Assembly: GCA_963921825.1 (NCBI GenBank)
Contig: OY997594.1
Coordinates: 33,214,956-33,278,955 of the forward strand
Length of the DNA stretch: 64,000 nucleotides
Source: Erodium maritimum
Taxonomy: Eukaryota > Streptophyta > Magnoliopsida > Geraniales > Geraniaceae
Direction: 5' to 3'
Made by a program: the position numbers and the translations under genes. Every line of letters begins with the position of its first letter. Position 1 is the stretch's first letter. The notes beneath the pieces were generated by a model. The model was not told where the DNA came from. It was given only the letters and a program-made list of their open reading frames with translations, and searched no databases. Shown here one piece after another: positions 9,930-51,863 of the stretch.

Positions 9930-10620
9930 ATTATCAGTTTACAAATTTGTGTTTATCACCAGAAAGTATACTTTTATCAATGATTCATATTTTATGACAT
10001 GTGCGTGCATCCATTAATAACTCAAACAGGGAACAGGTCACATACATTTATCAACTGTCACTGAATAATTTATCAATGATAAACGAACAGTTTATCAATG
10101 CATTCATAGTATACGACGTGCGCCTGCATCAATTATCAACGTATATAGAGAAAAGATACCAAACAGTTATCAACGCACAAATCATAAGTTATCAGTGGAA
10201 ACGATTTATTTATCAATGATCTCTGAAACGACAATGATTATCCAAGAACATGAATATCAGATATACAGACGTTTATCAACTACTTAACGTGTGTTTATCA
10301 GCATTCTATTGTGCATTTATCAACGTATTCCTCTACCTAAGATCTGTGCCTGGAGCAATCATCAACTCAAGAGTGAACTGTAACAGAAGTTATCAACTCA
10401 TAACCGTTGCGTTATCAACAGCAAAAGAAATGTTTATCAACTGGCAGCGAATCTTATTAGCTATTATGCGAAACTTCATGATGAACGGAGAAGAAGATTT
10501 CCAGATTTTTAATTTTGTATTTAAACAACGAAATCGGTAATGTATAGACTTGTTTATGTTGATCAGCTAAGAAAATAGGTGAATTCACATCAAATAGTTG
10601 ATAAACCTTAGCAGCACAGT
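9930..10620. repeat. TTATCAA-rich upstream region of the MULE-A transposase
   Basis: This non-coding leader and promoter side of the transposase gene holds about a dozen TTATCAA copies in roughly 500 bp, mostly as TTTATCAA. Only one clear reverse copy (TTGATAA, near 10599) was seen. The matching region of MULE-B (31978-32510) shows the same density in the opposite direction. Between 10620 and the terminal repeat at 11090 nothing codes. Purine-rich short near-repeats there resemble the matching stretch of MULE-B (31590-31900). Confidence 0.75.
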
Positions 10621-11089
10621 CGCTAAAACCTAAAACAGAGCACGATTTTCATAATTTTGAAAACGACACATATTTTGATTTTTGGATCCTCCAATTGATT
10701 ACATGACGATTTAATCAAGTCAAAAGGTAATTGAAACCTGTTTTGGAGATTGATCCGGTGATAAAACAGCTAGAATCTTCGATTTACAGTCTAGAAGCAA
10801 AAACAGAGCATGCTTTTCAGGTTTTGGAGAAGCCATTGATTCTCACAATTGGTGAAGAAATTTGATTCTACGATGATCGAATCAATGAAAGACAGAATGA
10901 TCACCTGTTTTCTAGTTGCTTCGTTGAGAGAAAAGGGAATTTTCGTGTAATTGTGTTGACTGCGATTATGATGTTGTTCTGACTGTGTAATGAAGAAGCG
11001 TGGAATTGACAATATTACCCTCGGAACCTACATATAACGCGCACTTTTGGCCGGAGATGAAGGATCGATCTCGGCGGTTGGCTGCTTCT

Positions 11090-11154
11090 GCTGGACGGAC
11101 GGGATTGGTTCGTTGGTTTGTACGTTAATAGTGGTTTTCAGCCGATTTTGTATC
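11090..11154. repeat. Terminal inverted repeat of MULE-A (only end in window)
   Basis: Read on the minus strand, this runs from CAAAATCGGCTGAAAACCAC through TTAACGTA. It aligns with the left end of MULE-B at 30945-31011. The partner repeat lies left of the window. The exact outer base is uncertain by a few nucleotides. Confidence 0.65.
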
Positions 11155-11253
11155 CGAAGACACATACAATAAGAGTTCTAAAAAGAGAATGCCAAGAAAA
11201 ACACTCGCATGAATATCTATGTAAAATCCAGATATCGTGGGACTAAAATAAAA

Positions 11254-21900: not shown

Positions 21901-21999
21901 TTGTTGAACCTGCGTTGTTGCTACTTGTTGAACTTTGCGTGTGATTGTGATTGTGTTTGCCCGGGGTTAGTAACCCGACTTCGTGTTGGGGAGTGGTGG

Positions 22000-30635: not shown

Positions 30636-30944
30636 CCCATCCCCCCTTCTCATTTTTTCCACACCAATCCCCACTTTCACTCTCCAACTTCACTCTCCCC
30701 TTCCCAAATTCTCCTCTCTCATTTCAATTATTCTCGTGAAAAATGTCGGGCGACGCAGGGTCCCGTGCACAGTCACCTGGTGACGAAGTCGGATTCAGCG
30801 TCGACGAACTGGCACAGAATTTGCAAGACATTCTAGCGGACAATTGGGACGACTCCGCTTTCTCCCCATACTCGCAATCGGGGTCGAGCTCAGGTAAGTG
30901 CAAACTTATTATTTATGTAACGTAATTTTTTTAATTAATTTTTT

Positions 30945-31011
30945 TGAGGCGAAATCAGCTGAGAACCACAGTTAACGTAGGAACTGTGAGAACTCATCTG
31001 ATCCGTCCACC
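30945..31011. repeat. Left terminal inverted repeat of MULE-B
   Basis: It pairs with 51797-51863 at roughly 70-75% identity. The best block is GTAGGAACTGTGAGAAC, with CTTAAGATAGGAACTGTGAG on the other side. Confidence 0.75.
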
Positions 31012-31091
31012 AACAGCAACCAACAGCCCAGATCAAACCTTTAGCTCCTTCCTATTTTGCACGATTCTTCATCAACGCAGGGGCAAGACTG

Positions 31092-31459
31092 TAACACCCC
31101 GCCGTCCCACACAGGGCCCCACGCGCGGCGATGTTAGGTCTGCAGCCCAATACACCCCAACCCCTCAGGTGTATTGTCCACAGACAAATACCAACCTAGG
31201 TTGTTGGTGAGACTTGAACCCAAGACCTCACCCTTTATAGAATTTCCTTGAGTGATGCTATCACCAATTGAGCTGCAGCTCAATTGGTGATAGCATCACT
31301 CAAGGAAATGCTATAAAGGGTGAGGTCTTGGGTTCAAGTCTCACCAACAACCTAGGTTGGTATTTGTCTATGGACAGTACACCAGAGGGGTTGCGGTGTA
31401 TTGGGCTGCAGACCTAACATCGCCGCGCGTGGGGTCCTGTGTGGGACGGCGGGGTATTA
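31092..31459. mobile_element. Inverted head-to-head dimer of a tRNA-derived SINE (368-bp palindrome)
   Basis: Two arms of 184 bp are near-perfect inverse copies that meet at 31275/31276 in GAGCTGCAGCTC. Each arm, read outward from the centre, begins like a tRNA: an A-box-like GCTCAATTGGTGATAGC and, about 40 bp on, a B-box GGGTTCAAGTC. A non-tRNA body ending near ACGGCGGGGT follows. This is the structure of a plant tRNA-derived SINE with its internal Pol III promoter. There are only about a dozen mismatches between the arms. It lies in the non-coding left side of MULE-B. It is not a functional tRNA, since no acceptor stem can be formed. Confidence 0.75.
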
Positions 31460-31977
31460 TAAATACCGTCAATTCGCCATGCTTCTTCCTCCTAATATCA
31501 GTCATCGCAGTCGTTGTTGTCGCACGATTCAAACAGTTTCGCGCTTCTCTCTCGCCAATTCAACTACAAAACAGGTCAGAAATATTTGCTTTCATGATTT
31601 GATGATCATACAAACACATTCGAGCGACAATTCTCTCTTCTCTACAACCTGAAAATCGTGCTCTGTTTTCTTCTTTCACTGTGCATCGTATAATTCAGCT
31701 GTTTTATCGACGGATCAAGCTCAAAAACAGGTGATAATTTCCTTTCTACTTCATTAGCTCTTCATCTAATCAATTCGACAAAAAAAATATCAAAAATAAT
31801 CTTGTGATTCAAAAATTTGATATCATGCTCTGTTCTACGGTTTATCAACTTTTTTCTGCGAAATCATCTCGTTTATTGCCAGATCAACATGTCTGTGACT
31901 GTGATAAACATGTCCAGTCGTGGCGTAGAGAAGTCGTTGAGAAAATTACAGTTTCTTAGTGATAAAACCTAGCTTCA

Positions 31978-32510
31978 AGTCGCGTTATGTTGATAAATGT
32001 AAGGTTAATAGTTGATAAATGACTCTGCTCTGGTGCTTGTCTGAGTTGATAATCGATGCAGACGTGTGTTGTGTTGTCTGACAACGTTGATAAATCTGTA
32101 GTTATTATGTTGATAAATGTAAGGTTAACAGTTGATAAATGACTCTGGTCTGGTGCTTGTCTGAGTTGATAATCGATGGAGGCACGTGTTGTGTTGTCTG
32201 ACAACGTTGATAAATATATTGTGTTACGTTGATAACTGTGGGATTTAGGGTTGATAATTGACTGCGATGTGGTGTTTGTCTGACTTGATAACCTGATCAG
32301 GCACATGTTGTGTGGTCTGATAAAGATGATAAATCTAGCGCGTCTAGTTGATAAATTTAGGTTTAGGATTGATAAATCTTGTGAACTGATTCTTGTCTAA
32401 GTTGATAACCTATGCAAGAACATGTTGTGTGGACTGAAACAGTTGCTAAGCCTAATGTGTTATGTTGATAAAATATATGTTCGTGAGTTGATAATTGTGT
32501 ATGTACATGT
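31978..32510 (+). repeat. TTGATAA-rich array upstream of the MULE-B transposase
   Basis: About sixteen TTGATAA heptamers lie in some 530 bp, all on the + strand, with no TTATCAA seen. Part of the region is a degenerate tandem repeat of about 120 bp (copies near 31985, 32106 and 32226) that includes TTGTGTTGTCTGACAACGTTG. By chance a given heptamer would be expected about 0.03 times in this length. Confidence 0.85.
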
Positions 32511-32519
32511 GATGCAGTG

Positions 32520-35208
32520 ATGGGAAGCATGGATCATGATGATGCAGAGTTTGGATTTGAATATGAAGATGACGACGAGACTGTTACAGAAACTATAAGC
32601 AGTCAGAAAGTTTGGATCCCTGAATGTGGTGATGAGTTAAAGCCTCGGAAGAATATGAACTTTTCCTCCTTAGAGGAGGGAATTATTTTCTACCAAACGC
32701 ACGCGTTAAATTGTGGGTTTGGGATACGTCGAGGCGCTGAGAAGAAAAAACCAAGGAGTAACACGGTCTTTTTTAAGTACATCTATTGTGCAAGACAAGG
32801 AGAACCATTTGTAGGAGAAATCGAAGGACGTAGCAATGACAAGATAAGAAAGAGGTATAGAATGTCTACACGAACATGTTGTATGGCAAGGATGTCTTTG
32901 AAGGAAACTGAAAATGGATATACTGTATATGAGTTCAGAGAAGACCACAACCACCCGTTATAGTGTAAGCGTGATTTCCAATATCTGAGGTCAAATAGGG
33001 ATTTATCAGCAAGGCACAAGCAGTTTATTATAGACTGCTCAAAGGTTAATTTGGGAGCTACAAAGGCGTTCAATCTTTACAGCCAAATAGTTGGGGGTCC
33101 TAGCAAAGTAGGAGCATGTCCAACTGACTTCAGGAACTTCCAACGGGATCTCAAAGTGTACATTGGAAAGAGTGATGCGCAGATCACAATCGACCAATTC
33201 CATACCAAAGAAGATTATTCTAGCGACTTCTTCTTTGAGTACAAAGTAGATGCTAGTGACCGACTAAGTCACCTTTTTTGGGCTGATTCAAGGTCGAGGA
33301 AGGATTACGAGCTATTTGGTGATACGGTATCGTTTGATTCAACTTATCGATCAAACAAGTAAAATCATTTCTCAGTGTATGATAAATTTTGTTGTTACCT
33401 TGATAAACCATATTGTTTCAATTGACAACCCTGAATCTGGGAATGATAAACCATATTGTTTCAGTTGACAACATGAATCTGGGAATGATAAAACCTTGTT
33501 TGAGGCTTGATAAAAAGTCACTCTCTGTTGATAACTTATTTATTTTTTTTGCAGATACTCGATGGTCTTTACTATGGTGGATAACCATAACAAGTCAATC
33601 ATATTTGGGGCAGCTTTACTAGCCAAAGAGGATGCCGAATCTTTTGTTTGGTTATTCCAAACATTCCTCAAAGCTATGAAAATGAAAGAACCGATCTGTT
33701 TTATAACTGACCAAGACCCAGCAATGAGAAAAGCTTTTGAAGAAGTGTTCGCACAAAGTAGGCATCGCCTGTGTATGTGACACATAATGCAGAAGCTTCC
33801 TTCTAAAGTAAGTTTCATTTTGAATTAATATGGTGATAAATTACAAGTTAGGAGGTGCACATTTGTTTGGTCGAGCGTCATAAATATGTTATTCTTCTTG
33901 CAGGTGCCTCATAATGTATACCATGAGACAAGTTTCAAGAAGAAATTTAAGGCATTGGTGTTGAGTAACTACACTGAAACAAATGAGTTTGAGGTGAGTT
34001 GGAAGTCTTTGATGGAAGAATTCCAACTACATGATCACACTTGGTTGTCTTCTATGTTTGAAATACGGGATAGCTGGATCCCTGCATACTTCCGAGGGCT
34101 GAAAATGGGTCTATTCCTTAGGATTACATCAAGATCAGAGAGCGAGAATAGTGCATTTGGTCAATTCACTGACAGGTACCTTTATGATTGATAAAAATGT
34201 ATCATGTATTATTGATAAATTATGAATTCTTGATTGATAAATATTTATGTAGAGACCATGTTGTTTGCTGGTGATAAATGTTTCATGAAGAAGTGATAAA
34301 TATGCAGTCTTGATTAATAAAAAAAATTGTTGTCCAGGTGCCTTACACTGGTTGAGTTCATGTGGCGTTTTGATACAGTCGTTGAAGGTCAAAGGCAAAA
34401 ACAATTACAGCTGGACTTCCAATCAAGCACCTTAGCTCCAAATTTCATGGTATTATCTGAAATTGAGAAGGACGGTTGGAGGATTTACAGTCGCTCAATC
34501 TTCGACATCATAAAGAAAAGTGTGGTGGGGACAACCTTCAGGTGTGGGATCAAAACTTGTGTTGAAAAGGATGGAAATAAGATATATAACATCGCAAACA
34601 AACATGGGAACAAGACGTTTGTTGTTGTGCAAAGCTTACCTGGGAACCATTGCACATGCTCTTGCATGAGATTTGAAGGATTTGGCATCCCTTGTATGCA
34701 TATTTTCTTGGCTTTGCAAGCATCTATGGTTGATCAAATACCGGAGAGGTTGATCACGCAAAGATGGACAAAGGATGTACGCAAGAATGCTGAAAACTCT
34801 ACAGATTCTGAAGAATTACAACCATCTGCCTATGGTGAGTGTAAGCAAATTATATCAGACATATGCTCGATGCTTCAATCTTGTGTCCTCCATACAGTAG
34901 TGAACGCTGCAAAGTTGAAGGAATTTGCAGAACAAGTAAAAGACTTCAAGAAGCAACTAAATGATGATGAAGTTGATGATTTTGCATCAACCACAACACA
35001 TGAACTTCAGACTTTGACATGGCTTTCTAAACCTTCACAAGTTATTGTCAAGCTCCCACAACAATCAAGGACAAAAGGCTGTGGAAAGAGAATACAATCA
35101 GGGATGGAAAAGTCCATTGAAGAAGCTAAGAAAAGGAAGCGCACTTACAAGGTTTGTGGTGAACCAGGACATGACATCAGGAAATGTCCCCGGAATAACA
35201 AAGAATGA
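32520..35208 (+). pseudogene. FAR1/MULE-type transposase gene of MULE-B
   Basis: Transposase predicted to bind the element ends and cut with a DDE-type domain. Exons: 32520-33358 (FAR1-like DNA-binding region to SFDSTYRSN with the first Asp), 33555-33807 (second Asp in ITDQDPAMRKAF), 33904-34175 (YTETNEFEVSW, likely third acidic residue) and 34338-35208 (SWIM finger CSCMRFEGFGIPCMHIF and a C-terminal knuckle). Introns are GT/AG and contain TTGATAA motifs. ATG 32520 follows a CAG, so a non-coding 5' exon is possible. Breaks: TAG at 32961-32963 where MULE-A has Gln, and TGA at 33778-33780 at the Trp of LCMWH, shared with MULE-A. The knuckle's first Cys is Tyr (TYKVCGEPGHDIRKC). Not functional as read. 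Confidence 0.88.
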
Positions 35209-35322
35209 AGTGATAAATCTTTTAATTCTGTTGATAAACTATGTTCAAAAGGTTGATAATAGGTGTGTTTCTTACTACTGACTCTGTCAGGTTCACAACC
35301 TGTGCAACGTTCAAACTTTATT
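35209..35322 (+). repeat. Spacer 3' of the MULE-B transposase (left of the retrotransposon)
   Basis: Non-coding, with two TTGATAA copies and one GTGATAAAT. Its continuation lies at 45897, beyond the nested retrotransposon. Confidence 0.7.
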
Positions 35323-38300
35323 TGTAAGAACCACTACCGGTCAACGCCAGTCAAACCTGCGAAAAACAGGAAAATTTAAAAAATTTGGACAGACACTTAA
35401 GTGAACCTAACTTTGACACTGAGGGTCATACATGACTTAAGTTGACCCCGTTATCGACCAAAGTGAGTTCCGGGGGACTCAGAGCAACTTTCTGACCAAT
35501 TTGGGAAAGGTTGACTTTTCGCTTGAAAAGTCAACTGAGCGACATTTCGGTCCATTCGAGTTCCGTTTTGGATCCAAAAATCTTAACCGTCATCGCAGCG
35601 GTCTTAGTTGAGCCGTTTCCTTGTACCCCGTGAAGTTTCGTAATTTCTTGGAAAAAGTGCCCGTTCGGGGCCCGAGACGACCGAATTTCGCGAATCTGAT
35701 TGGAAAATATCTAGAAGATATTTTCCAAAAGGTGTGGGACCCACTTGCCATATGTCAATTATGTGGTGGTGTTAGGTTTCTTGAACAAAACAAAGATGAG
35801 ACTTGGAGTGTTAGCTTTCTAATTTAAAAGGTTGGTGTTGTTTTTTAAAAACAAATAAACGGGAATGTTTAGGTGGTTTCAGCAAAACAGAAACAAAAAG
35901 GGGGAGTTGAACAGAGAGAAAGGGGATAGAAAGAGGAGAGAAGGTGGAGAGAAAAGGAGAAGAAAATTTAGGGTTTTGGTGATTCCCGACGATCAAACCG
36001 GTGGATCGTCTCAACGATAAAAGAATCGAGCTCACATCGACATTCTCTACGGTGAGCACCTAACCGATTTTCGTTTTGTTAAGTTTGAAAGTTAGGGTTT
36101 GGGTTCGAACTAGTAGTTTTTGGATGTGTTGAGGTGTGAGGTTCGTTGGAGGTGTTTTGGAGCGAAGAGATGAACGTTTTCCGGTGACCGGAGGCTAGGG
36201 GGACCTCCGGCCACCGTGTATGGTGGCTGGCCGGTTTTGTAGGGTGGCTAGCCGGAGTTAGGACCAGCCACCACCTTGGTGGACTGGCCCCAAACAGGCC
36301 CTAGCCACCCACGACCAAAGGGGGTCGGATGGGGCCCACATGCTCGGGTATTCGGGTTTCGTGTTCGGGTGGTTTAAAATGTTCCCCAAGTAATTAATCC
36401 ACACCCGGATCGAAATTTGGAATTAACTTGTGAAAGTTATAATTGACGGGTTTAGAAACTTTAAACGCGAATTAAATTACTCGGAAGTCGGAACTCGATT
36501 CCGTCGAGTGCCTAGGAACTCTTGAATTATTCTAAGACCGTAGAAACGAAAACGGGAATTTTCAGAGCCCCGGAAGGGCGTTTTCAAAACCCGGGCAGAT
36601 ACGCCACGTCGGGCGAATCGAGCTTTTCCGGGTCCATTATTGACAATGTCGAGTAATTGGGAAGTTTAGGAGTGATCGACATTACCGTGATTGCGTTTGG
36701 GCGTTTAATTCTTTAAATTCGGGTTTCGCCTACTTACTTAAAAAGTGTGTTAATTGTAATAATTGTAGACCGTGTCGCCTACCGTGGAAATATGAGGCTA
36801 AGCGGGAATTATGAAGCCTTTCCGGAGTAAGAGCATCGAGTTTGACACGCTTCAAGAGGTAGTGAAAAGTAGCCGGATCTCGGCCCTGATTAGGGAAAGT
36901 TAACAGTAGAAATGCATGTGACACTTGGGTGTCGTGGGTTAAGTAAGTTTATCGAATATTAGAAAGGCAGGCGACACCGGGTGGTGTCGTATGATACGGG
37001 AACTTATCGAACAATAGAAATGCATGTGACACTTAGTAGTGTCGTAGGAGCAGTGAACTTTCGATATTAGAATTACTGGAGGCATTTGGTTATGCCGGAG
37101 GTTGATTGTTTAATTTGTGTCTTGGGTGGCCATGAGAGCCCGTATTATACTGTTGTGTCTTGGGTGGCCATGAGAGCCCGTATTATACTGTTGTGTCTTG
37201 GGTGGCCATGAGAGCCCATATTATACTGCTGTGTCTTGGGTGGCCATGAGAGCCCGTGTCTTTACTATTGGTGTCTTGGGCGGCCATGAGTGCCCGTGGG
37301 GTTGTTGAACCCGTGTCTTTACTTTTGGTGTCTTGGGTGGCCATGAGTGCCCGTGGGGTTGTTGAACCCGTGTTCTACCGTTGGTGTTTTGGGTGGCCTT
37401 GACTGCCCGTGGGGTTGTTGAACCCGTGTTCTACCGTTGGTGTTTTGGGTGGCCTTGAGTACCCGTGGTGTTGTTGAACCCGTGCTTTACCGTTGGTGTC
37501 TTGGATGGCCATGAGTGCCTGTGGAGTGTCAAACCGGTGTTGTTGCTGTTTGTTGAAATTTGTTTGTGATTGTGATTGTGTTTACCTAAGGTTGGGGGCT
37601 CGCTTCATAATAACAGGGGTCCTGTGATCGCACGCGTCTACATGTTCAGACGGGGTAGGGGGCCCGCTCGTGAGGAAAGGGGTCCTGGCCGTGCGTGCGT
37701 GGATTGGGGTGACAGGTCGACAGCCTGATCCCACTTTGTGTCAGGAAAAGTGCGACAGGGCGACCTCCTGGCCTGACAGGGATCGGTAAAGGGCGTGAGG
37801 GGGTTACTGAGCAGCTGGAGTGCGATCCATTGTGATCTTGTTTGGTGTGCGATCCTTAGTGATCTTGGGTGTTGCGTGGTTATCTGTCGTGTCTTTGGAG
37901 GAAGTCGTCAATCGTCGTGTCGGGTCTACGTTACGAGTCCGAGTGTTGAGTGGGTTGAGGAAAGTAACGGTTTGTGTGTCAGTCGGGTTACTCGAGTCTG
38001 GGGATAGTAGTCCCCGGTGTTCGGTTGTTGTTGGTGTTACTGGCATTGTCTGCTAAGTATGATGTAGTCAGTCTGTTATCAGTGGTGGTGAGCGAACGCT
38101 CACCCCTAGCTGCTTTTCCTACAGGTATTGGTCGCGGGATGGACTAGGTGAGCTTCCGAAGCTTGAGGAGCTAGGAGCGGGAGTCCGGGTTTACTTTTGA
38201 GTCTAGCGACGTATACCTTGTATTTTGTCCGCTTGTTGGGACGTACTTTGAGTTGTAAATTATTATTTTGTTAAACAAATTGATGGTTTTAAAGCGATTT

Positions 38301-38379
38301 ATTCAAAAGGTTTGAAAAGGTTTTATTAAATTAAACGTTCGCGTTCCGGGTTCGGTTTTACTGAATTTGGGGCGTGACA
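35323..38379 (+). repeat. 5' LTR of the family A element
   Basis: Starts TGTAAGAACCACTACCGG and ends GGGGCGTGACA. The tandem array with core GTCTTGGGTGGCCATGAG lies at 37117-37520. A small hairpin GGTGAGCGAACGCTCACC lies near 38086, just before a CTTTTCCTACAG tract. Both are conserved across the family. Confidence 0.93.
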
Positions 38380-38739
38380 GCTTGGTATCAGAGCTCGAGG
38401 TTTCACACCTCGGACTGTACGTCAATTAGGTGGGGAGAGTCGAGTCGGTGAAAGTCCCGTCGTGCGTAGTTGCGCAAGTCGGAAACCGTGTGTAGACCCG
38501 TGGTGTCTTGAGTCCTGTTTGTGATTGTGTGTATGTGCAGTATTTTATTACTGGCATACTAATTATTTGTTGCTGTGTGAACGTTTTTAAGCTGTCTTGG
38601 GTCGACTCAGGAGCGCTCCTGTAGTCGAACGTGACGGTGCTGATATCAAGTCGGTACAACGTAGTTCGGGGACGCCTGGACCGGGTTGTAGCTACGTGAT
38701 GTCAAAGAATGAGGTTTTATAATGAAAGGGAGAAAAGTT

Positions 38740-39560
38740 TTAAATTTGGTTGGCCCTGTGGGCGTGTGTGTAAGTTGGTTGGTCCGGTGGGTGCGTTTTG
38801 ATTTTGGTTGGTCCGGTGGGTGCGTTTTGATTTTGGGTGGCCCGGTGGGCGTGTTTTGGTTTTGGTTGGCCTTGTCGGCTTGTGATTGAGGTTGGGTGAC
38901 TTGTGTTTGGTTTTTAAATTGTTGTACGTGTGTTGTTAGTTTGGTGGTCGAATGTCTGCGACGCACAAGTGTGCGGGTTGCTAGGAGACGGGTAGGATGC
39001 GAGTGCCCTAGGGTAGACGTGACGGTGTGTTAAGTGCGAAGTCGTTGCAGCTACGGGACGGGCCATGGACCGGCCCGCTAGGAGACTGGGTCGGGGCCAC
39101 TGTTTTGGCGCGGAAGGTGAAATGGATCGGGTGTCTTACCAGCCCGGACGGCATAACGGACCGGGTGGCTTGCTGGCCCGGACGACAGCACGGTCCGGAT
39201 GGCTTGCCGGCCCGGACAGCAGCACGGTCCGGCTGGCTTGCCGGCCTGGTCCAGTCAGCTGCTTTTAAAAAATTTTGGTTTCGTTGTGTGGTTAATGTTG
39301 TTGTTACGTGACTTGGTGCACGTTCGTGCGGTTTATTTGAGGTTTCCTTCACGTGAGTGGGTTATTCGAGGTTTCCCTCGCGTGAACGGATGGTTTAAGG
39401 TTTCCTTCATGTGAGTGGGTTATTTGAGGTTTCCAATGTGATCCAGTAGTTGGGGTATTGAGGTTGTGAGCAATAGTGATTCGCTGAATTGAGAACATAA
39501 TCCCCGTTTTGAGGTTTCCCTTACGTAAGAGATTATTTGAGGTATTAATGGCTTGAGCAG
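38740..39560 (+). repeat. Three short tandem arrays in the leader of the family A element
   Basis: Units of about 29 bp (GGTTGGTCCGGTGGGTGCG) lie near 38770-38880. Units of about 31 bp (GGCTTGCCGGCCCGGACAGC) lie near 39165-39260. Units of about 30 bp (GAGGTTTCCTTCACGTGAGT) lie near 39330-39560. They lie where gag would be expected, and no gag domain is visible. Confidence 0.75.
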
Positions 39561-39779
39561 TGTGATGTTTTGGTATCAGTTTTTGAGGTAGTGGTTTTCC
39601 CTGATTAGATGGGTAATTCGTTAGTGCTTTACTAGTATGTCATAATCGAACGGGTGTCCGTGGAGGTGAGCAGAACGCTCATCCCCTTTACTACTTTTCC
39701 CGCAAGGGACGAGTAACGAATACTGGTTTGGTTGCGAAAAGTTATAAGTAAATGGATAGAGGACAGTGTGGGGGTTGCA

Positions 39780-42700
39780 CTAGACCTTACCGGAGTGACT
39801 AATGGAGTGGTTGTTCGGTCTCTGATTTGGGCGTCAGTTTTATTGGATACCGGGGCGTCACACTCGTTTGCTTCGTCGAGTTGTGCTGGGATGTTGGGGC
39901 TGAGTTTAGAGCCGTTGAGTACACCCCGGCGTCTGGACACGCTAGTTGGGGGTGTTGTGGTGTTGACTAGGGTCTGTCGTGCCTGCGAAGTTAGAGAAGC
40001 GAATTGATACATGAGTTCGAGAGAGGGCTCAAGAGCCCCGATGCTGGATCAAGTCCTCACCCCGAGGATTCGGGTATGTTCGGAGTTGGTAGGCACGACG
40101 ACGGTAGTGGAGCGAGGTCTTAGAGAGTCCGCGAGGGTCCGTGAGTTTTGGTAGCGACTGAGTTTGTGTGTGTATCCGTGGGAAGGATACTTACGAAATG
40201 ACCACCTTGACATGATCCTGGGAATGGATTGGCGGGCGAAGTACCAAGTCAATATCGACTGTTACGGGCGACGAGTGACGGTGTCAGCAGGAAACACGAA
40301 GGTGTCGTGTGTTCTGGGTAGTAAGAGCGGGGTTTTCCTGTCGGCATTGTCCGCAGTGAAGGAGGTATCAGCTGTGCAGAGCCGCGAGTTACCGCAAGTG
40401 GTTTGCGAGTTCCCCGAGGTCCTTCCGGAGGAATTGAGCGGGTTGTCACCAGTTCGTGAGGTGGAGTTCAGGTTTGACCTGGTGCCGGGAACGGCAGCGA
40501 TATCGATGGCGCCTTACAGTTTCGCGCCAGCCGAGTTGACCGAGCTGAAGCATCAGCTCGAGGAGCTTCAGGAGATGGGATTTATCCGTCCGAGCGTATC
40601 GCCGTGGGGAGCACCAGCACTCTTCGTGAAGAAGAAGAGTGGAGAGCTCCGGATGTGTATAGATTACCGGAAGCTGAACCGGGTTACGGTGAAGAACCGA
40701 TACCCGATGCCGAGGATTGACGACTTATTCGACCAGTTGAGAGGGTCGACCTGTTTCTCGAAGATCGATCTGCGGTCCGGATATTACCAGTTGCGAGTCC
40801 GAGAGGAGGACGTCACAAAGACTGCATTCTGGACACGCTATGTGCATTACGAGTTCTTGGTGATGCCGTTTGGACTGACGAACGCACCTGCAGCGTTCAT
40901 GGATCTGATGAACATTATATTCTGACCGTTCTTAGATCAATTTGTGGTGGTAGTTGTGGACGATATCTTGATCTTGTCGCAGAACGAGGCGGCGCATGAG
41001 GAACATCTGAGGGGTGTTCTGACCCTGTTGCGCACACATCAATTATACGCCAACCTGGAGAAGTGCGAGTTTTGACTCGCTGAGGTGGGATTCCTCGGTC
41101 ACGTTGTGTCCCGTGACGGTATATTGGTCGACCCGGCGAAGATCGATGCGGGTTTGAAGGGAGCGCGACCCACGAGTGTCTTCGAGATCCGCAGCTTCTT
41201 GGGGCTGGCAGGACGTTTATCGGCGGTTTTTTCCAGTACTTTGCGTGACTAGCCGCGCCTATGACTATTTTGACACGCAAGGGAGTTGGGTTTATGTGGA
41301 CCGACGTTTGTGAACGTGCGTTCACGGAGTTGAAGGCTCGTCTGACTACCGCTCCAATGTGATAGTGCCAGAGCGCGGGTTCGAGTATGAGGTCTGTTGT
41401 GATGCGTCCGGGGAAGGTTGTTGCTTGTGGCTCCAGGCGGCGGAAGACGCACGAGCGCAACTATCCTACCCATGACCCGGAATTAGCAGCAGTAGTGTTC
41501 GTGCGGAAAGGCTTGAGGTATTATCTGTATGGCGAGCGATTTCAGGTGTTCTCGGATCATAAGAGCCTTAAGTACATCTCTTCCCAACGAGACCTGAATA
41601 CGCGCCAGCGGCGATGGATGGAACTACTCGAGGAGTACGACTTTGAGCCATACTACCATCCGGGTAAGGCGAACGTGGTTGCCGACGCCCTGAGTAGGAA
41701 GTCGGTCTCGAGTCTTGCTAGCATATCAGTCCGAGAGTGGGACATGATATGGGAACTGGGCACGCTCGGGTTGGAGCTAGAAGAGGTTACTGGCGGCGTG
41801 ACCATGTACTTCTTGGTGACTCAGCCCAACCGGCTTGGCCGGGGAATAGAGGTGCAGTCGGTGGATGTCGAGACGATAGAAATCCGGGAGAGAGTTGCCG
41901 GCGGTGTTGACGCCGAGGGTTGGGATCGTCGTGCTAATTGGGAGTTACGGTATCGCGAAGGTTTATTCATACCAAGTAACGGTGGAGGTGACGAGCTGCG
42001 AGAGTCGCCGCATTCGCGTCTGACAGTGCACGTGGGTAGCACTAAGAGGAGCGCGACATCTGGTGGCTTGTCTAGTGGAGCGGGATGCGGAGAGCGGTCG
42101 CGGAGTTAGTATCGCGGTGCCTCACTCGTCGGCAGGTGAGAGCCGAACAACAGCGTCCCGCTGGATTATTGCAACCACTGCGGGTTGCACAGTGGAAATG
42201 GGGGCACGTCACGATGGACTTCGTGAGCGGTTAGCCGATTTTGCCTACAACAACAGCTTTCAGGCCAGTATCAGGATGGCACCGCTCAGAGCATTGTATG
42301 GTAGGCCGTGTCGGTCGCCCGTGTACGGGGCGGAAGTGAGGAATGAGGGTTCACTGGGTCTAGAACTGGACTAAGAGACAGCTGAGTCGGTCGTGTCGAA
42401 GCGTGAGCGGTTGAAGACCGCGCAGAGTCAGCAGGAGCTATGTTGACAGACGTTGCCGACCTCTCGAGTCAGCAGTCGGTGATCATGTATCCCTGGAGGT
42501 GAGTCCGAAAGGTGGACCGGTGCGTTTCAACCACGGCGCAGGCGGGTTAGCCCCGCGGTGTATCGAGCCTTTCGAAGTTTGAGTATAGGGGGAGCAGTTG
42601 CATACCGACCTGCACTACCGCCGCAGCATGGGAATATCCACGTTTCCCAGTTGCAGAAGTATGTGTGGACCCCTCGCACGTCATTGAGTGGGCAGATGTC

Positions 42701-42890
42701 GAGGTAGCTGATGATGTCTCGTATGAGAAGGAACTGGTTTGGGAAATGGATCCGCGGGAGCAGGTCCTGCGCGGAAAGGTTATCCGCTTAGAATGGGTGC
42801 AGTGGCGGCACCACAAGGCTGAGTCGACTTGGGAACGCAAGGACGAGGTTCGCGCGAAGTACCCTAATCTGTTCGAATCCAGAGGTATGA
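39780..42890 (+). other. pol region of the family A element
   Basis: Fossil polyprotein of a chromovirus. It contains an aspartic protease block (VLLDTGASHSFASSS), reverse transcriptase motifs ([43 protein letters not shown]), RNase H (YPTHDPELAAVVFVRKGLRY, FSDHKSLKY) and the connection LSRKS. Integrase survives only in small pieces, followed by a WRHHKAESTWE chromodomain-like end. The order and motifs place it in Ty3/gypsy, Tekay/Del side. It is broken in many places. Confidence 0.88.
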
Positions 42891-42934
42891 CTGTTTTGAA
42901 TTTCGTGGACGAAATTCCTTTAAGGGGGGTAGAT

Positions 42935-45896
42935 TGTAAGAACCACTCCCAGTCAACGCCAATCAAACCTGCGAAAAACAGGAAAATTTAAAAAATTTGG
43001 ACAGACACTTAAGTGAACCTAACTTAGACCCCGAGGGTCATACCGGACTTAAGTTGACCCCGTTATCGACCAAAGTAAGTTCCGGGAGAGTCAGGGAAAC
43101 TTTCCGACCAATTTGGGAAAGGTTGACTTTTCGTTGGAAAAGTCAACCGAGCGACGTTTTGGTTCATTCGAGGTCCGTTTTGGATCCAAAAAGCTTAACC
43201 GTCGTCGCAGCAGTCTTAGTTGAGCCGTTTCCTTGTAGCCCGTAAAGTTTCATAATTTTTGGAAAAAGTGCCCGTTCGGGGCCCGAGACGGCCGAATTTC
43301 GCGAATCTGATTGGAAAATATCTAGAAGATATTTTCCAAAAGGTGTGGGACCCACTTGCCACATGTCAGTTATGTGGTGGTGTTAGGTTTCTTGAACAAA
43401 ACAAAGATGACACTTGGAGTGTTAGTTTTGTAATTTAAAAGGTTGGTGTTGTTGTTTAAAACAAATAAAAGGGAAGGTTTAGGTGGTTTCGGCAAAACAG
43501 AAATAAAAAGGGGGAGTTGAAAAGAGAGAAAGGGGATAGAAAGAGGAGAGAAGGGGGAGAGAAAAGGAGAATAAAGTTTAGGGTTTTGGTGATTCCCGAT
43601 GATCAAACCGGTGGATAGTCTCAACGATAAAAGAATCGAGCTCACATCGACATTCTATACGGTGAGCAACTAACCGATTTTCGTTTTGTTAAGTTTGAAA
43701 GTTAGGGTTTGGGTTAAAACTAGTAGTTTTTGGATGTGTTGAGGTGTGGGGTTCGTTGGAGGTGTTTTGGAGCGAAGAGATGAACGTTTTCCGGTGACCG
43801 GAGGCTCGGGGGAGCTCCGGCCACTGTGTATGGAGGCTGGCCGGTTTTGTAGGGTGGCTGGCCGGAGTTAGGACCAGCCACCACCTTGGTGGACCGGCCC
43901 CAAACCGGCACTCGCCACCCACGGCCAAAGGGTGTCGGGTGGGGCCCACATGCTCGGGTATTCGGGTTTCGTGTTCGGGTTGTTTAAAACGTTCCCCATG
44001 TAATTAATCCACACCCGTATCGAAATTTGGAATTAAATTGTGAAAGTTATAATTGATGGGTTTAGAAACTTTAAACGCGAATTAAATTACTCGGAAGTCG
44101 GAACTCTATTCTGTCGAGTGCCTAGGAACCCTTGAATTATTCTAAGACAGTAGAAACGAAAACGGGTATTTCGGAGCCCCGGAAGGGCGTTTTCAAAACC
44201 CGGGAAGATTCGCCATGTGGGGCGAATCGGGCTTTTCCGGGTCCTTTATTGACAATGTCGAGTAATTGGGAAGTTTTGGGAGTGATCGACATTACTGGGA
44301 TTGCGTTTGAGCGTTTAATTCTTTAAATTCGGGTTTCGCCTGCTTACTTAAAAAGTGTGTTAATTGTAATAATTGTAGACCGTGTCGCCTACCGTGGAAA
44401 TAGGAGGCTAAGCGGGAATTATGAAGCCTTGCCGGAGTAAGAGCATCGGGTTTGACACGCTTCAAGAGGTATGGAAAAGTAGCCGGATCTCGGCCCTGAT
44501 TAGGGAAAGTTAACAGTAGAAATGCATGTGATACTTGGGTGTCGTGGGTTAAGTAAGTTTATCGAATATTAGAAAGGCAGGCGACACCGGGTGGTGTCGT
44601 ATGATGCAGGAACGTATCGAACAATAGAAATGCATGTGACACTTAGTAGTGTCGTAGGAGCAGTGAACTTTCGATATTAGAACTACTGGAGGCATTTGGT
44701 TATGCCCGGAGGTTGATTGTTTAATTTGTGTCTTGGGTGGCCATGAGAGCCCGTATTTTATTGCTGTGTCTTGGGTGGCCATGAGAGTCCGTATTTTACT
44801 GCTGTTTCTTGGGTGGCCATGAGAGCCCGTGTCTTTACTGTTGGTGTCTTGGGCGGCCATGAGTGCCCGTGGGGTTGTTGAACCCGTGTCTTTACTTTTG
44901 GTGTCTTGGGTGTCCATGAGTGCCCGTGGGGTTGTTGAACCCGTGTTCTACCGTTGGTGTTTTGGGTGGCCTTGAGTGCCCGTGGTGTTGTTGAACCCGT
45001 GCTTTACCGTTGGTGTCTTGGGTGGCCATGAGTGCCTGTGGAGTGTCAAACCAGTGTTGTTGCTTTTTGTTGAACTTTGTTTGTGATTGTGATTGTGGTT
45101 ACCTGAGGTTGGGGGCCCGCTTCATAATAACGGGGGTCCTGTGATCGCACGTGTCTGCATGTTCAGACGGGGTAGGGGGCCCGCCCGTGAGGAAAGGGGT
45201 CCTGGCCGCGCGTGCGTGGATTGGGCTGACTGGTCGACAGCCTGATCCGACTTTGTGTCGGGAAAAGTGGGACAGGTCGACCGCCTGGCCTGACAGGGAT
45301 CGGTAAAGGGCGTGAGGGGGTTACTGAGCAGCTGGAGTGCGATCCTTTGTGATCTTTTTTGGTGTGCGATCCTTAGTGATTTTGGGTGTTGCGTGGTTAT
45401 CTGTCGTGTCTTTGGAGGAAGTCGTCAATCGTCGTGTCGGGTCTACGTTACGAGTCCGAGTATTGAGTCAGTTGAGGAAAGTAACAGTTTGTGTGTCAGT
45501 CTTGTTACTAGAGTCTGGGGATAGTAGTCCCCGGTGTTCGGTTGTTGTTGGTGTTACCGGCATTGTCTACTATGTATGTTGTAGTCAGTCTGTTATCCGT
45601 GGTGGTGAGCGAACGCTCACCCCTAGCTGCTTTTCCTACAGGTACTAGTCGCGGGATGGACTAGGTGAGCCTCCGAAGCTTGAGGAGCTATGAGCGGGAG
45701 TCCGGGTTTACTTTTGAGTCTAGCGACGTATACCTTGTATTTTGTCCGCTTGTTGGGACGTACTTTGAGTTGTAAATTATTATTTTGTTAAACAAATTGA
45801 TGGTTTTAAAGCGATTTATTCAAATGGTTTGAAAAAGTTTTATTAAATTAAACGTTCGCGTTCCGGGTTCGGTTTTACTGAATTTGGGGCGTGACA
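42935..45896 (+). repeat. 3' LTR of the family A element
   Basis: Starts TGTAAGAACCACTCCCAG and ends GGGGCGTGACA. Its tandem array (44727-45040) has fewer units than the 5' LTR, which accounts for most of the length difference of about 95 bp. Confidence 0.93.
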
Positions 45897-46330
45897 TTAT
45901 TGATAAATTCTTCAAGTAGTATTGATAAAGTCTATTCCTAAGGTTGATAAAAAGAATATTATTCTTACTTCTGCCTGTCTGTGTGGTGCAGAACAGTTGA
46001 TAATTCCCACTGGATTAGACATGATAAATCTGTTCAAGCAGTTGATAATGTCTTCAGACATGTATGATAAAAATCAACTTCAAATCATAATTAACTCTGG
46101 ATATAAAATATATCCAGATGAACTGATAATACCTGAGAAACTAGTTGATAAAACAAGTTATTTAGTTGATAAATCTGTTCACACAGTTGATAATATCTGA
46201 AGACATGTATGATAAAAATCAACTTCAATCCAGATGAACTGATAATCCATGAAAAACAAGTTGATAAACACAAACACATACAGTTGATAAACCCTGTTTT
46301 CAGATCTGATAAGGCATTGAACCTTTCAGG
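45897..46330 (+). repeat. TTGATAA-rich spacer between the convergent MULE-B genes
   Basis: About ten TTGATAA heptamers and six further TGATAA cores lie in some 430 bp, all on +, with no TTATCAA seen. It is the right part of the spacer that starts at 35209. From 46330 to 46490 there is no gene. Confidence 0.8.
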
Positions 46331-47639
46331 ATCATTCTTGTCCACAAAAAAAATTAACACATGTCTGTACATTTCATACAACCTGTTTCCCCCCATAAAA
46401 ATAAAGTGATCACAAAGTCATTACACCTTTACCAAAACATAAACCACAACACACATTGTTTTTGTCATCTACCAAGTACTACCCGGTTCTTTCCAAAGAA
46501 CCTGAAGATACTCTATCGTCTTTAGTTTGTTCCTTCATCTGTCAATAACTCCTAATCCTTGTCTCATTAATTATCGTTCCTGTGCTACTTGGGTATGTGC
46601 AGAGCTTCATGAGATAGCGATGCCTCAGGTTTGCTATTTGATCAGCCTATATACACACAACAAAAATCCAAAACTAGTTAAATGCGTAGCAACAAAATAT
46701 ACGAAAAGACCAACAACTTATACAAAAATATGATCTTACATTGTTTTTTAACATTGGATACCCCAGGCACTGCCTCTCTGACCCATATATCGTTCCATGT
46801 GGAACATACAATACACACCACAGTCGATCTTGTTGGCGTTGCTGCTCCAGTCTATCTTCAGACACCTTGCACTTGCATTTTATTAATTTTCACCGAGAGT
46901 GTAGCGTCATGCTTTTCCAGAAATGCAGAAATCCTATTCTTCTGCCGATTATAGAAAACATACACATATTAGAACCTAAAAATGTGCATAATTTAATAAC
47001 TAAATTACATATATACTTACCAAATTGGTAATTATGTTCCCATATTTGGCCCTAAAGTTCGACCCCTCCAAATTATCAATTACAGAAATGGTGTGTTTCT
47101 TCATATTGATGCACACCAAGTAATAATGATTGCATGCATGAATTGGGAAAAACACCTATAGTTGATAAATGAACCATACCAATGTGGTTACACACATGCA
47201 CAAAACTATAAGCATAGATAGGCCAAAAAAATAGAGGGAGATTTATTACCAAATCAGTGGCAGTGATATCCATATCCGGGTACATACCCAACTCGATTTC
47301 AATTTGTTCAGCCTAACTTCCACTCTTTGCATCGGTTAACCCAACCTAACAATAAAAGGGATTCAAAATGATATACAAATTTCAACATTACTCTTATTAA
47401 AGAGAACAAATTATATGAACTAAACAACTTACACTTGCATATGGTGTGAAAAAAACCCTCGAAGGTTCGTCTGGTGTTCTCTTATCTTCGATGCAATTAA
47501 GATAAGCTGCCCATCCAATAAGGACACCCATCTTCAATTCCGACCCGACTCTCATAGTGCGCAGATTCTTTCTCATCACCCCTAGATCACCATCCATTAC
47601 TTCAAACAGCATATCCCTGCAAAAAAAAAACACATATGC

Positions 47640-47900
47640 ATATAACTTGACAGTATTGATAAAATGTCCAGATGGATTGATAAATCAGTTCAGGATTGGT
47701 TGATAAATTTGTCAAAGATGGGGATAACAAAATCTAAAATTGGAGTTGATAAACCTACATGAAAACATTGATCAAAATGTTCAGATAACATTGATAAAAA
47801 AATGTACAGACATATTAAAAAGGCAATATTTCATAAAAATGAGTCATGGTTAATAAAATAAAACACAGAGTTCATAAACCTACAAGACAATATTGATAAA
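47640..47900 (+). repeat. TTGATAA cluster in an intron of the MULE-B Ulp1-like gene
   Basis: Six TTGATAA copies on + within 260 bp. The host gene runs on -, so the motif is antisense here, whereas in the transposase introns it is sense. Confidence 0.8.
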
Positions 47901-49129
47901 AATAAATTAAAATAAAGGGCTAGCACAATACCAGTCATCTCCTCGCTTATCGTTAAGAAGCCACTCCATCCACATTTTCTCTTCTTCAGTTAATGGAGAG
48001 TCCACATCTGTCATTCTTGTGTCTGACATTTCCAATGCAACTTCCTTCCTTTTTTGCCTTTTCTTTGTACTTCCGGGTGATCTCCTGGATGATCTCTCTT
48101 GTTTCTTCTCTTTACCCTTCTTTCCGCTGGCTACATCTTCAAATACTGCACTTCTTTCATTGATTACTGGCCTTTTCTCAATACTTCCGACCATTCTCTC
48201 TTGTTCTTTTTCTTTGCCCTTGTCTAAACTGAGCAAACCTTCACACGCTTCTCTCCCTATCTCACTAACTTCCTCAAGCCCTAGGCTGAATGTTGGCATG
48301 CCACGACCTTCTATCTCCGCTCCATTAACCTCTTCCTCAACTCTCTCAACTTCCTCAACCCTCACACTAACATCATCTACAACTTTTCCCCCTACATCAA
48401 CAGCTTCGCCCTGTTCACTAACCATATCCCCTCCTAATCCCGCATCAACATCTTTTCCTAACTCTGCCACCTCTTCCAATATCTCCTCACTCACGTTGTT
48501 ATTTTCTCCCCCAACACAATCAGTTTCAACATTCTCTCTCTCTCTTGCAACATGTTGACCACTACTCTGACTGGTCACTTTAGTCGCAGCCTTCATCGCT
48601 GCTTCAAATTCTTTGATAACGTCTGGATGGTTAAAAAAACGGTCCTGTGAGGACTCTTCAATATCATGCTTAGGTTGAGCCCCAACATCTCGTTGACAAC
48701 ATCGTGCAGTCTCCTAACAGTGACAATATCAGAGAAGGTTGAAATGGCATTCCTAATGGTTTCCTTGAAAGCCACAAAGCAATCAGCAAGCTGTAATGCT
48801 TGATTCGCCAAGTTTACAATGCATTACTACAAAATTTGCAACAAAAAAAATGTCAGCGTTAACACAAAAATCATCAATTTCACACAAAAAATATTTTGAT
48901 TATACCTCTTGTTGTACTCCGGGAATGACATTATCTGTTTCCTTCGGCACGTACGGGTCTTTCTCGATATAACCTTCCCCGAACGAGGCATACTTCATTT
49001 CAAGAAGCTCCCGGTTTTTCAAATGCTCACTTGTCCAACCTATAACAGATGGTTGGGCCCTATCGACAGTTCTTTTCTCTAGAACTACACGATCGACATA
49101 GTATAGCTGCACAACACCAAAAAATGAAC

Positions 49130-49520
49130 ATGAGACTTCTGCCATTGATAAAACCAACAAAAAGAGATGATAAAACATGGGTTAACATTGATAAAAAGGG
49201 TGAGATCAGAAAATAAAACAAGTGACTTCTGACAGTGATAACATCATTTAACTGAGATGATAAAACACACAAACATGAAAGGAATATCAGAAACACACAA
49301 ACATGAAAGGAATATCCAGAAACAGAGATGATAAAAACATAGTTAACAGTGATAACATCATTTAACTGAGATGATAAAAATCAATTCTATGATGATAAAA
49401 CACAAACATGAAAGGAATATCAGAAACAGAGATGATAAAAACATGGTTTAACAGTGATAACATCATTTAACTAAGATGATAAAAATCAGTTTTATAATGA
49501 TAAAAACACAACATGAAAGG
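49130..49520 (+). repeat. GATAA cluster in another intron of the Ulp1-like gene
   Basis: About thirteen TGATAA cores on + (mostly GAGATGATAAAA and CAGTGATAAC) are arranged in a degenerate repeat of 60-100 bp with AACATGAAAGGAATATCAGA. Only two are the full TTGATAA. Confidence 0.75.
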
Positions 49521-50601
49521 GAGATCAGAAAAAAAAAGACTAACCATCAAAAAAGTCATTGGACCGGCATAGAACTTCTCTCCGGTAAGTGGTTTCTCCC
49601 ATTTCTTTTGGCTTTCAAGGAGGCCATCAATAAGATATGAACACCAGTTGTACTCCGCAATAGCTTCTAGATCCTCAATTCCATACAAGACTGTGTGATT
49701 CACATAGCTCCCACTTATGCCTTCTACCATCAGTGTAGAGAATAAGACCAAAAAATTCCATATGAACATTGCATCTCTTCCCCTTTGATTCTTCATTTTA
49801 TTGATCACAGTTCCCATCGTCACATCAAACACCGACTTCGCCTTCTCGAACTGCTCCAACCACCGCTCAACAACTGGACAATTCTCAGTCCGACTTGCAA
49901 CAATTGGACGCCCCCCCGAGGGGGATCCCCAATGTCTCCAAGACATATACATCGCTGACATGTAAAAACTTGTCCTGCCCAATTTTCAGACACCTACTAC
50001 TAGTATGGAAATTACTCGCAAGAAAAAACCCCAAGGCTTTGGGTAATTCCTTCACCCGCAGCTTAAAAAGGCTAGAAAACCCCATCTCAAAGATAGCCAC
50101 CCTCTGATCATCTGTCACACTCTCCAGGAAATTTACCAATGATTTTGGTGATGTCCTGATCTTCAACCTTCGGACACCATCCCCCCTTGAAACCACAAAC
50201 TCTTTCTTGTTCTTCTTCGTCGGTGGAATTGCAACATCTTCACCCTTTCCCAGCCCCCTCTTCTTCACAGGGACGACAGCAAGTTCCATCGATAGAGCCT
50301 CTCCTACATTATCTTCAGCATTCGGAGGTGGTGGAGTTGATGAACCTTGTCCTACATTATCTTCAGCATTGGGAGGGGTTGGAGTTGACGAATCTTGTCC
50401 TACATTATCTTCAGCATTAGGAGGGGTAGGACTTGATGAACCTTGTCCTATGTCTTTTTCTGTTTGACTACGAGTAACTACCGCTGATGAAACCTCTCCT
50501 GCTGGATTGGGAGGAACTTTGATCTTGACAGTGAGTTTTTTGGCTTTCCTTGTACACATAAAAATCAGAAAAATCAACTGAATAATCATCACAAAGACCA
50601 A

Positions 50602-51796
50602 GATAAAAAAACAATGTTTAAATAATTCAAAACCTTCTACCTGGAATCATATCCTTCAGAAGCATTGAATCATTATTCTCAATTATCTTCACCATTTTCT
50701 GAAAACAAAACACATTGATACACAAAAAGTGAGCAATCAAAACTTAGAGTGACTGATAAAATACATGAACACAGGTGATAAACTGTGAATTCAAAGTTAT
50801 TAAAATACATAGATGATAGAACAATCATTCAAACGCAAAAGGTAAAAGTAATCAACTTACAAACTTGATAAATTACATGCAAGCAAGTAATAACATGTGA
50901 AGACACAGTTGATAAAACAGATAAATGACAGAACAATCATTTATACACGAAAAGTGAGCATCATACTTAAAAAAGTTCCTGTTAAATTACATGCACTCTG
51001 TTGATAAATGTACAGACATAGTTGATAGAACACATAAGACGGAACACACAAATCTACATAGTGTCAACAACTAACACTGAACATGCAGATGATAAATCAT
51101 GACATGCAATTGATAAAAAGGACGTCCAATGTTGATAACATAGATTTAACCACCTGTAAGCAACCAAAGCATATGTGTAATCGATAGATCACATAATATA
51201 CTTGATAAAAATCAAGCAAAGTTGATAAACATAGAAAAACAGATCACAACCAAAGACACATTCACTCAAACATGCATCAAAACACTAAAAACAGAGTGCA
51301 TGCAACTTCAAATAGGTTCCTCCTTTGTAAATCACACAAATAAACGTTCAGAAGCAACTAAATCAAGTATCGAGCGCAAAAATTAGGTCAAAATCGACCG
51401 TTCTTAACAAAAAAATCCCTAAAATCAGTAACACTCACAGCAGACAAAAATAAACTTAAAATCAAAGGAATCGGAGCAAAAAACCTTCAGTAGACCACGG
51501 AATATGCTTCGATTTCACACCATTTGCTTCAACCTTCAACCACGCGCAACAAATATGGAGAACGAACACATAGAGAAAACAAGGAGCGAAGAACACGAAC
51601 CGAGAGAAAAAAATGAGAGAGTCGATTGCATGAGACGGTTGCTCTTTAGCGTGTGTGAGGAGATTACAAAATTACCCCTAAACCCTGACCAACACAGCGA
51701 TATTACAAAAATGCCACCGAAACTGCTGTTTTTTTTCAACAATTGAGTCAACAAGTCAAATGTTCAACTTTGCATCTAAGCCATCTATTCTTGAGA
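50602..51796 (+). repeat. Upstream region of the Ulp1-like gene up to the right MULE-B terminus
   Basis: No gene. About seven TTGATAA copies lie on + between 50700 and 51240, with none reversed. The rest is AT-rich with a purine-rich stretch (51550-51620) close to the terminal repeat. Confidence 0.65.
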
Positions 51797-51863
51797 TGGA
51801 TGGCTCAGATTGGTTCTCACAGTTCCTATCTTAAGAGGTGGTTCTCACCAGATTTCTCCTCTA
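51797..51863. repeat. Right terminal inverted repeat of MULE-B
   Basis: It is the inverse of 30945-31011. It runs from GATGGATGGCTCAGA through GTTCTCACAGTTCCTA to GATTTCTCCTC. The sequence after it rejoins the Harbinger intron. Confidence 0.75.

Follow-up and report, generated by a model that had tools for sequence, protein, structure and literature searches.

Phased, one-way TGATAA arrays in a FAR1-type Mutator-like element of Erodium maritimum as candidate targets of a VANC-like anti-silencing protein

VANC proteins and their targets are the closest described counterparts of the arrays presented here. In the available text of Hosaka et al. 2017 (PMC5735166), VANC targets are non-coding, dense and arranged in tandem in the same orientation, with a motif that varies among related elements, and they also expand via tandem duplication. 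The available parts of PMC10398659 and of the review PMC13317346 agree with that account of the VANC mechanism, and the review adds that Ulp1-carrying VANC genes (KIU, Kaonashi) use motifs to target related elements for hypomethylation. The DNA analyzed here (the window) is a stretch of 64,000 nucleotides from Erodium maritimum, contig OY997594.1, positions 33,214,956 to 33,278,955, which contains two copies of a Mutator-like element (MULE): MULE-B and the inverted MULE-A (Table 1). Each has a transposase gene and a convergent Ulp1-type gene, and the non-coding parts of each carry arrays of a short motif. Work by Sasaki et al. in 2022 reportedly found that motif sequence, density and helical periodicity set the specificity of diversified eudicot VANC systems, in which domains are said to have been gained and lost and non-autonomous elements to be involved.

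Motif copies were counted at 31480-35300 and 45880-51860 in MULE-B and at 1555-5850 and 9050-11200 in MULE-A. TTGATAA was found 51 times on the plus strand of MULE-B and twice on the minus strand, and 37 times on the minus strand of MULE-A and once on the plus strand. A previous sequence-only reading had estimated about 45 forward copies in MULE-B with almost none in reverse, and about 40 reversed copies in MULE-A; both estimates agree with these counts, which are unequal between strands in either copy. Chance was ruled out as the source of the copies by dinucleotide shuffles (200 for each of three stretches), which gave means of 0.6-1.4 TTGATAA per strand and maxima of 3-6. AT-rich composition was ruled out by five control loci (49.8 kb; two flank the window and three surround matches of a 15-bp-spacing pattern), where 46 TGATAA were found vs. 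43.6 in shuffles; a similar density was thus not seen elsewhere in the genome at these loci.

The constant core of the motif is TGATAA, mostly within RTTGATAAA, and its forward and reverse copies number 83:3 in MULE-B and 53:5 in MULE-A, each in its own orientation. Exons, with limits drawn by eye, account for 5,135 of the 9,799 bp counted in MULE-B and 3,430 of the 6,445 bp counted in MULE-A. They contain one of the 51 forward TTGATAA copies of MULE-B (at 48613) and none of the 37 of MULE-A, one forward TGATAA copy in each element (1/83 and 1/53), and two of the three and two of the five reverse TGATAA copies, respectively. No TTGATAA was found on either strand of the long terminal repeat (LTR) retrotransposon nested in MULE-B (35311-45880). 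The transposase and Ulp1-type genes converge, so that a motif in sense orientation for one of them is antisense for its neighbour; as was also argued previously, the motif is tied to the DNA element rather than to the transcripts.

The core and a phasing of approximately 22 bp go beyond the sequence-only reading, which gave no spacing. In MULE-B, pairs of TGATAA copies are 21 bp (13 pairs), 22 bp (23 pairs) or 23 bp (4 pairs) apart, followed by 43-45 bp (22 pairs) and 64 bp (6 pairs), while those in MULE-A are 22 bp (25 pairs) or 44-45 bp (16 pairs) apart. The best period was 10.65 bp for MULE-B (power 36) and 10.80 bp for MULE-A (power 45), and jittered nulls (n = 500) reached powers of at most 9.5 and 10.4, respectively. 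Single positions between copies hold just 0.02-0.34 bit, which means that most arrays are not recent duplicates of a single 22-bp unit. When MULE-A and MULE-B were aligned, the core was intact at 70 of 78 ungapped sites, vs. 16 of 71 for the 59 remaining permutations of its letters, a comparison in which common sites are counted from both sides, gapped sites are set aside and repeats can flatter the alignment.

The arrays also contain higher-order tandem repeats with unit lengths of 105 and 120 bp, which could reflect a passive repeat in which the 21-23 bp and longer units spread by slippage or unequal exchange with no binding function. Tandem duplication also enlarges published VANC targets (available text of PMC5735166). 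We consider passive spread unlikely, however: core and spacing are kept although the sequence between copies is near-random, the core is far better preserved than its permutations (with the same caution for repeats), triples at 26-28 bp are nearly absent from the genome, and clades with other words retain the spacing of approximately 22 bp (both described below).

In the 763 Mb of genome searched, three successive same-strand TTGATAA at 21-23 bp were found at 6,978 places (3,583 + 3,395), compared to 24 (9 + 15) for the backwards-read control. Triples at 26-28 bp were found at 0 + 2 places (control: 3 + 2), and head-to-head pairs with a 21-23 bp gap at 64 places vs. 41 for the control. Across the genome, the arrays are thus characterized by spacing together with orientation. 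The first genome pattern used, with 15-bp spacing, mostly catches another repeat and not the ~22-bp arrays: TTGATAACACGCTGT is common at 15-bp spacing in G000 (for example at C1:30568797). TTGATAA-N8-TTGATAA was found at 90 + 108 places (control: 15 + 14).

Among the matches listed (approximately 100 of the 6,978 triples), a few are in a MULE-B relative at C1:8102456-8107795 (beside locus L027) and many show the spacer type found in loci L017 and L020. L017 has 22 same-strand TGATAA within 0.66 kb, L020 has 34 copies within 1.05 kb and L019 has two arrays of 21 and 23 copies in opposite orientations; none of the three matched the MULE-B proteins. Sequences matching the MULE-B right end lie, inverted, at both borders of L017 4261-5637 (91% over 55 bp; 100% over 24 bp) and of L019 4865-6199 (85% over 65 bp; 90% over 40 bp), and we read both stretches as non-autonomous elements of approximately 1.35 kb. 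L020 showed no match to the MULE-B right end; five loci are labelled non-autonomous in the motif tally, and both ends were matched solely in L017 and L019. These short elements bear on the reading of the arrays as an RNA-level signal, acting in splicing or transcript control. Introns and leaders do hold many of the arrays, but the motif has opposite senses for the two genes, the intergenic spacer is also filled, and arrays occur in short elements without matches to the family proteins, so that an RNA-level role is scarcely credible.

To compare motif with protein, we analyzed the best 30 of 160 listed matches to the N-terminal domain of the Ulp1-type protein. To these were added L052 and L053 (hand-picked from the diverged end of the same list), L054-L059 (picked among 123 further matches) and L060 and L061 (the stretches flanking L052). 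With no motif preset, TGATAA ranked first, alone or tied, among phased 6-mers in all 30 loci retrieved with the N-terminal exon (MULE-B itself is among them), showing that the motif is present in other family members, and its majority strand in these loci is opposite to the Ulp1-type gene. Counted on both strands, with shuffle means (n = 20) in parentheses, clade 1 (22 loci) has 526 TGATAA (76), 75 TGTATG (53) and 16 TTTGCG (25); clade 2 (8 loci) has 171 (25), 11 (18) and 3 (11); clade 3 (5 loci) has 12 (18), 61 (16) and 4 (5); and clade 4 (3 loci) has 8 (6), 5 (5) and 34 (4). Distances of 21-23 bp account for 288 of 325 TGATAA pairs at 7-40 bp in clade 1 and 91 of 98 in clade 2, 14 of 20 TGTATG pairs in clade 3 and 14 of 14 TTTGCG pairs in clade 4. 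Across the four clades and three words, no pair at 21-23 bp fell off this motif-clade diagonal: TGTATG in clade 1 is above the shuffles (75 vs. a highest shuffle of 64) yet unphased.

The strands of TTTGCG are split 7:1, 12:1 and 13:0 in L057, L058 and L059, and L059 has eight pairs at 22 bp and six at 44 bp. L052, which is ~35% identical, has no TGATAA in 4 kb and 5 TGATAA vs. 31 TGTATG in the surrounding 11.9 kb; its TGTATG copies form many 22-bp pairs and are on the plus strand upstream of the gene, but mostly on the minus strand in the intron adjoining the N-terminal exon and farther downstream. For TGATAA, polarity is strict in clade 1 (6:520), while in clade 2 (48:123) small arrays face the opposite way. 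The element-wide strand polarity described previously thus holds for clade 1 but not for clade 2 or L052, and a replication or transposition polarity signal, one of the roles then suggested, is not supported because polarity is not element-wide in all clades.

The protein tree contains 32 rows: P0001, the sole relative found in protein searches, and the 31 loci, out of 40, whose segments were 175 aa or longer (L010, L012, L023, L035-L038, L042 and L046 were omitted). Support is 100/99 for clade 3, 100/100 for clade 4 and 98/94 for the TGATAA loci together; clade 2 is not a single branch, L047 sits beside clade 1 and the tool warned of long branches between the deep groups. These data strongly suggest a different motif with a diverged protein in clade 4 (TTTGCG, from three loci), and weakly suggest the same in clade 3 (TGTATG), where other words, several with GTATG, outrank TGTATG in L052, L054 and L056. 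Beyond the clade 3 gene of L052, a convergent frame (L060 3653-4000, minus strand) ends in a zinc-knuckle-like stretch and may be the end of a clade 3 transposase.

The GATA-protein word, WGATAR, is contained in TGATAA, and the GATAA within the core could mean that the arrays are sites for host GATA factors, serving as enhancers borrowed from the host. GATA factors would be unable to read the TGTATG of clade 3 or the TTTGCG of clade 4, which are found at the same spacing, and to our knowledge strict same-strand phasing across many sites is not typical of enhancers. We therefore regard this explanation as very improbable.

The layout of the arrays is similar to that of VANC21/VANDAL21 and VANC6/VANDAL6, with many one-way short motifs in introns, spacer and terminal non-coding parts and none in exons; VANDAL21 and VANDAL6 also share the tandem repeats and the occurrence of different motifs in related elements (available text of PMC5735166). 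According to the same text, VANC proteins combine conserved domains with variable parts containing peptide repeats, and a 48-bp coding tandem repeat (3.1 copies, 50302-50450) is likewise found in the N-terminal exon of the MULE-B Ulp1-type gene. There are also differences. The VANDAL21 and VANDAL6 motifs, as far as that text gives them, are YAGTATTAY and AGTTGTCC/AC, in contrast to the TGATAA found here and the TTTGCG and TGTATG of other clades, and DUF1985, a domain of VANCs, is not above cut-off here. VANDALs are non-TIR MULEs (available part of PMC13317346), whereas the element here has terminal inverted repeats (TIRs) and a FAR1/SWIM transposase; MULE-B is not filed as a VANDAL because of these TIRs, in which 55 of 68 columns are identical.

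As in KIU and Kaonashi of Arabidopsis non-TIR MULEs (available parts of PMC13317346 and PMC2528002), the Ulp1-type gene lies beside a MULE transposase in reverse orientation, but the host here is a TIR MULE of the FAR1 type. The Ulp1 (Peptidase_C48) domain of such second genes was detected in the joined pieces of MULE-B, but not in MULE-A. In grapevine and melon, ULP-containing Jittery-like and TIR MULEs have the ULP gene on the downstream side of the transposase, where it may face either way; motif arrays are not mentioned in the available part of that paper (Benjak et al. 2008, PMC2528002).

The sequence-only reading proposed that the FAR1 domain of the transposase binds the motif. The transposase does carry this DNA-binding domain, and the short array-bearing elements keep TIRs, as transposase sites would need. 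FAR1/FHY3 proteins bind a CACGCGC-type site, however, and introns and spacer, not the ends, hold the arrays; end-binding transposase sites were rejected for this reason. A FAR1 binder is not supported, given that the arrays do not sit at the termini, that different clades of the Ulp1-type gene come with different motifs and that the layout is VANC-like (available text of PMC5735166). Binding sites for the FAR1 domain spread through the element are thus a decidedly unlikely explanation.

Among the DNA-level roles suggested previously, repeated binding sites are favoured. Since the arrays match the points described for VANC targets as far as sequence can show them, we propose that the Ulp1-type protein binds the word of its own clade and lifts silencing, and we consider it likely that the TGATAA arrays are phased one-way binding sites in a VANC-like anti-silencing system. 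The predicted binder is the protein of the second gene, with its PMD/DUF1985-like N-terminal domain and Ulp1-type peptidase domain. Its molecules would sit next to one another on the non-coding parts, with one site per approximately two helical turns, and would strip or block DNA methylation across the whole element; non-autonomous elements with a matching array would likewise be freed from silencing, and the protein of each clade would read its own phased word. We infer the identity of the binder, the anti-silencing effect and any role of the Ulp1 domain.

Several observations weigh against this proposal. The Ulp1-type gene is broken in both window copies, and the joined Ulp1 pieces of MULE-A have no Peptidase_C48 match (their match to SENP7 is weak, E-value: 0.0062). 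No Pfam family matched the N-terminal domain of the window protein. DUF1985 was found below cut-off in P0001 (E-value: 0.099), L052 (0.14) and L053 (0.091) alone, and was not seen in 10 further members scanned. Clade 3 provides the weakest evidence, with a phase power of 6.4 from 59 distances. Outside the window, the best periods are 11.35 bp for clade 1 and 11.05 bp for clade 2 (values without a null); the step therefore approximates a constant 22 bp more closely than whole helical turns, and the helical phase is approximate. Finally, clade members share descent, so their counts are not independent, and the transposase could have changed in step with the clades.

Homologues of the N-terminal domain are found at no fewer than 160 genomic places, and among these copies L026, L028 and L030 are examples with an open first exon. 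PMD was found below cut-off in L052 (E-value: 1.2e-5), L053, L054 and L055, and neither PMD nor DUF1985 was found in the four clade 1 members, L056 and three clade 4 members scanned. Sequence searches of PDB with the domain gave no credible match, and an AlphaFold model of P0001 from a three-row alignment had a predicted local distance difference test (pLDDT) score of 36.6 and was not used.

The FAR1, MULE transposase and SWIM domains were all detected, placing the element among FAR1-type MULEs: the MULE domain was demonstrated in MULE-A (FAR1, E-value: 3.3e-14; MULE, 1.4e-13; SWIM, 6.4e-6), and FAR1 and SWIM in MULE-B. The two copies are inverted repeats of 87-90%. The TIRs of MULE-B are imperfect (30943-31010 and 51794-51862) and are flanked by a possible 9-bp target duplication identified by eye (TAATTTTTT, 30936-30944; TAATTGTTT, 51862-51870). 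The missing part of MULE-A is probably C7:33,193,966-33,195,538, left of the window, which has 8 + 6 further motif copies oriented as in MULE-A. In the MULE-B transposase, a stop separates open reading frames 32487-32963 and 32964-33362. A TGA stop is found at the equivalent transposase site in MULE-B (33778-33780, plus strand) and MULE-A (5462-5464, minus strand), which suggests a damaged shared ancestor or the same change occurring twice. In the MULE-A Ulp1 piece at ~3057 (plus strand), KTDYGVYC is found in place of the KIDCGVYC of MULE-B, and the presumed catalytic cysteine is therefore altered. An inserted palindrome near the MULE-B left end (31092-31459) has 184-nt arms that are 96% complementary with zero spacer. 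Four related long repeats (5838-8926, 19648-22982, 35311-38248 and 42923-45765) contain internal tandem units of 38-39 and 55-58 bp; the first interrupts MULE-A, and the last two, in MULE-B, resemble both LTRs of the nested retrotransposon.

Table 1. Elements, genes and TGATAA arrays in the window
Feature	Position	Strand	Details
MULE-B	30945..51861	+	split by nested LTR retrotransposon, ~35311-45880
MULE-B leader array, upstream of transposase	31902..32494	+	20 TGATAA; 120-bp higher-order tandem repeat, 31985-32472
MULE-B transposase gene	32517..35208	+	FAR1 E-value 2.9e-13, SWIM 2.3e-5; frame broken by in-frame stops
MULE-B transposase intron array	33380..33534	+	6 TGATAA
MULE-B transposase intron array	34189..34299	+	5 TGATAA
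MULE-B array directly past transposase stop codon	35211..35259	+	3 TGATAA
MULE-B intergenic spacer array	45901..46312	+	16 TGATAA
MULE-B Ulp1-type gene	46521..50686	-	N-terminal PMD/DUF1985-like domain and C-terminal Ulp1 peptidase pieces
Ulp1 peptidase pieces, MULE-B	47620-46521	-	Peptidase_C48 E-value 2.5e-10, pieces joined with X at breaks
MULE-B Ulp1-type gene intron array	47657..47899	+	6 TGATAA
MULE-B Ulp1-type gene intron array	49146..49503	+	13 TGATAA; 105-bp higher-order repeat
N-terminal domain of MULE-B Ulp1-type gene	50169-49545	-	frame change near 49911
MULE-B array upstream of Ulp1-type gene	50754..51228	+	10 TGATAA
MULE-A	1555..11200	-	inverted copy; interruption ~5850-9050; left side cut off inside window
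MULE-A Ulp1-type gene intron array	1970..2208	-	9 TGATAA
MULE-A spacer array	3567..3915	-	11 TGATAA
MULE-A transposase intron array	4824..5025	-	7 TGATAA
MULE-A transposase intron array	5724..5840	-	6 TGATAA
MULE-A leader array	9931..10439	-	16 TGATAA

A literature search for TTGATAA with MULE found nothing related, and other searches led to the VANC and ULP papers cited above. The kind of system is known, while the FAR1-type TIR-MULE host and the motifs provisionally look new; the novelty of the motifs is provisional because the search was limited and Sasaki et al. 2022 may already contain some of them. A fuller picture, which we offer tentatively and with more doubt than the binding proposal itself, is that of a FAR1-type TIR-MULE lineage with a VANC-like system in which the word varies by clade (TGATAA, TTTGCG, TGTATG) and the spacing of approximately two turns is fixed. 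Molecules of the protein might then line up in one direction on the DNA; a conserved protein-protein contact would fix their spacing, a variable part would determine the word, and a single protein clade might serve very many non-autonomous elements in one genome. If the proposal is true, sequence-specific anti-silencing would extend from VANDALs to FAR1-type TIR-MULEs, and a single genome would offer natural protein-motif pairs at near-equal spacing for studying DNA recognition and assembly by such a protein. The presence of one-way words, phased at approximately 22 bp and confined to non-coding parts, in transposons would also provide a simple sequence test for such systems.

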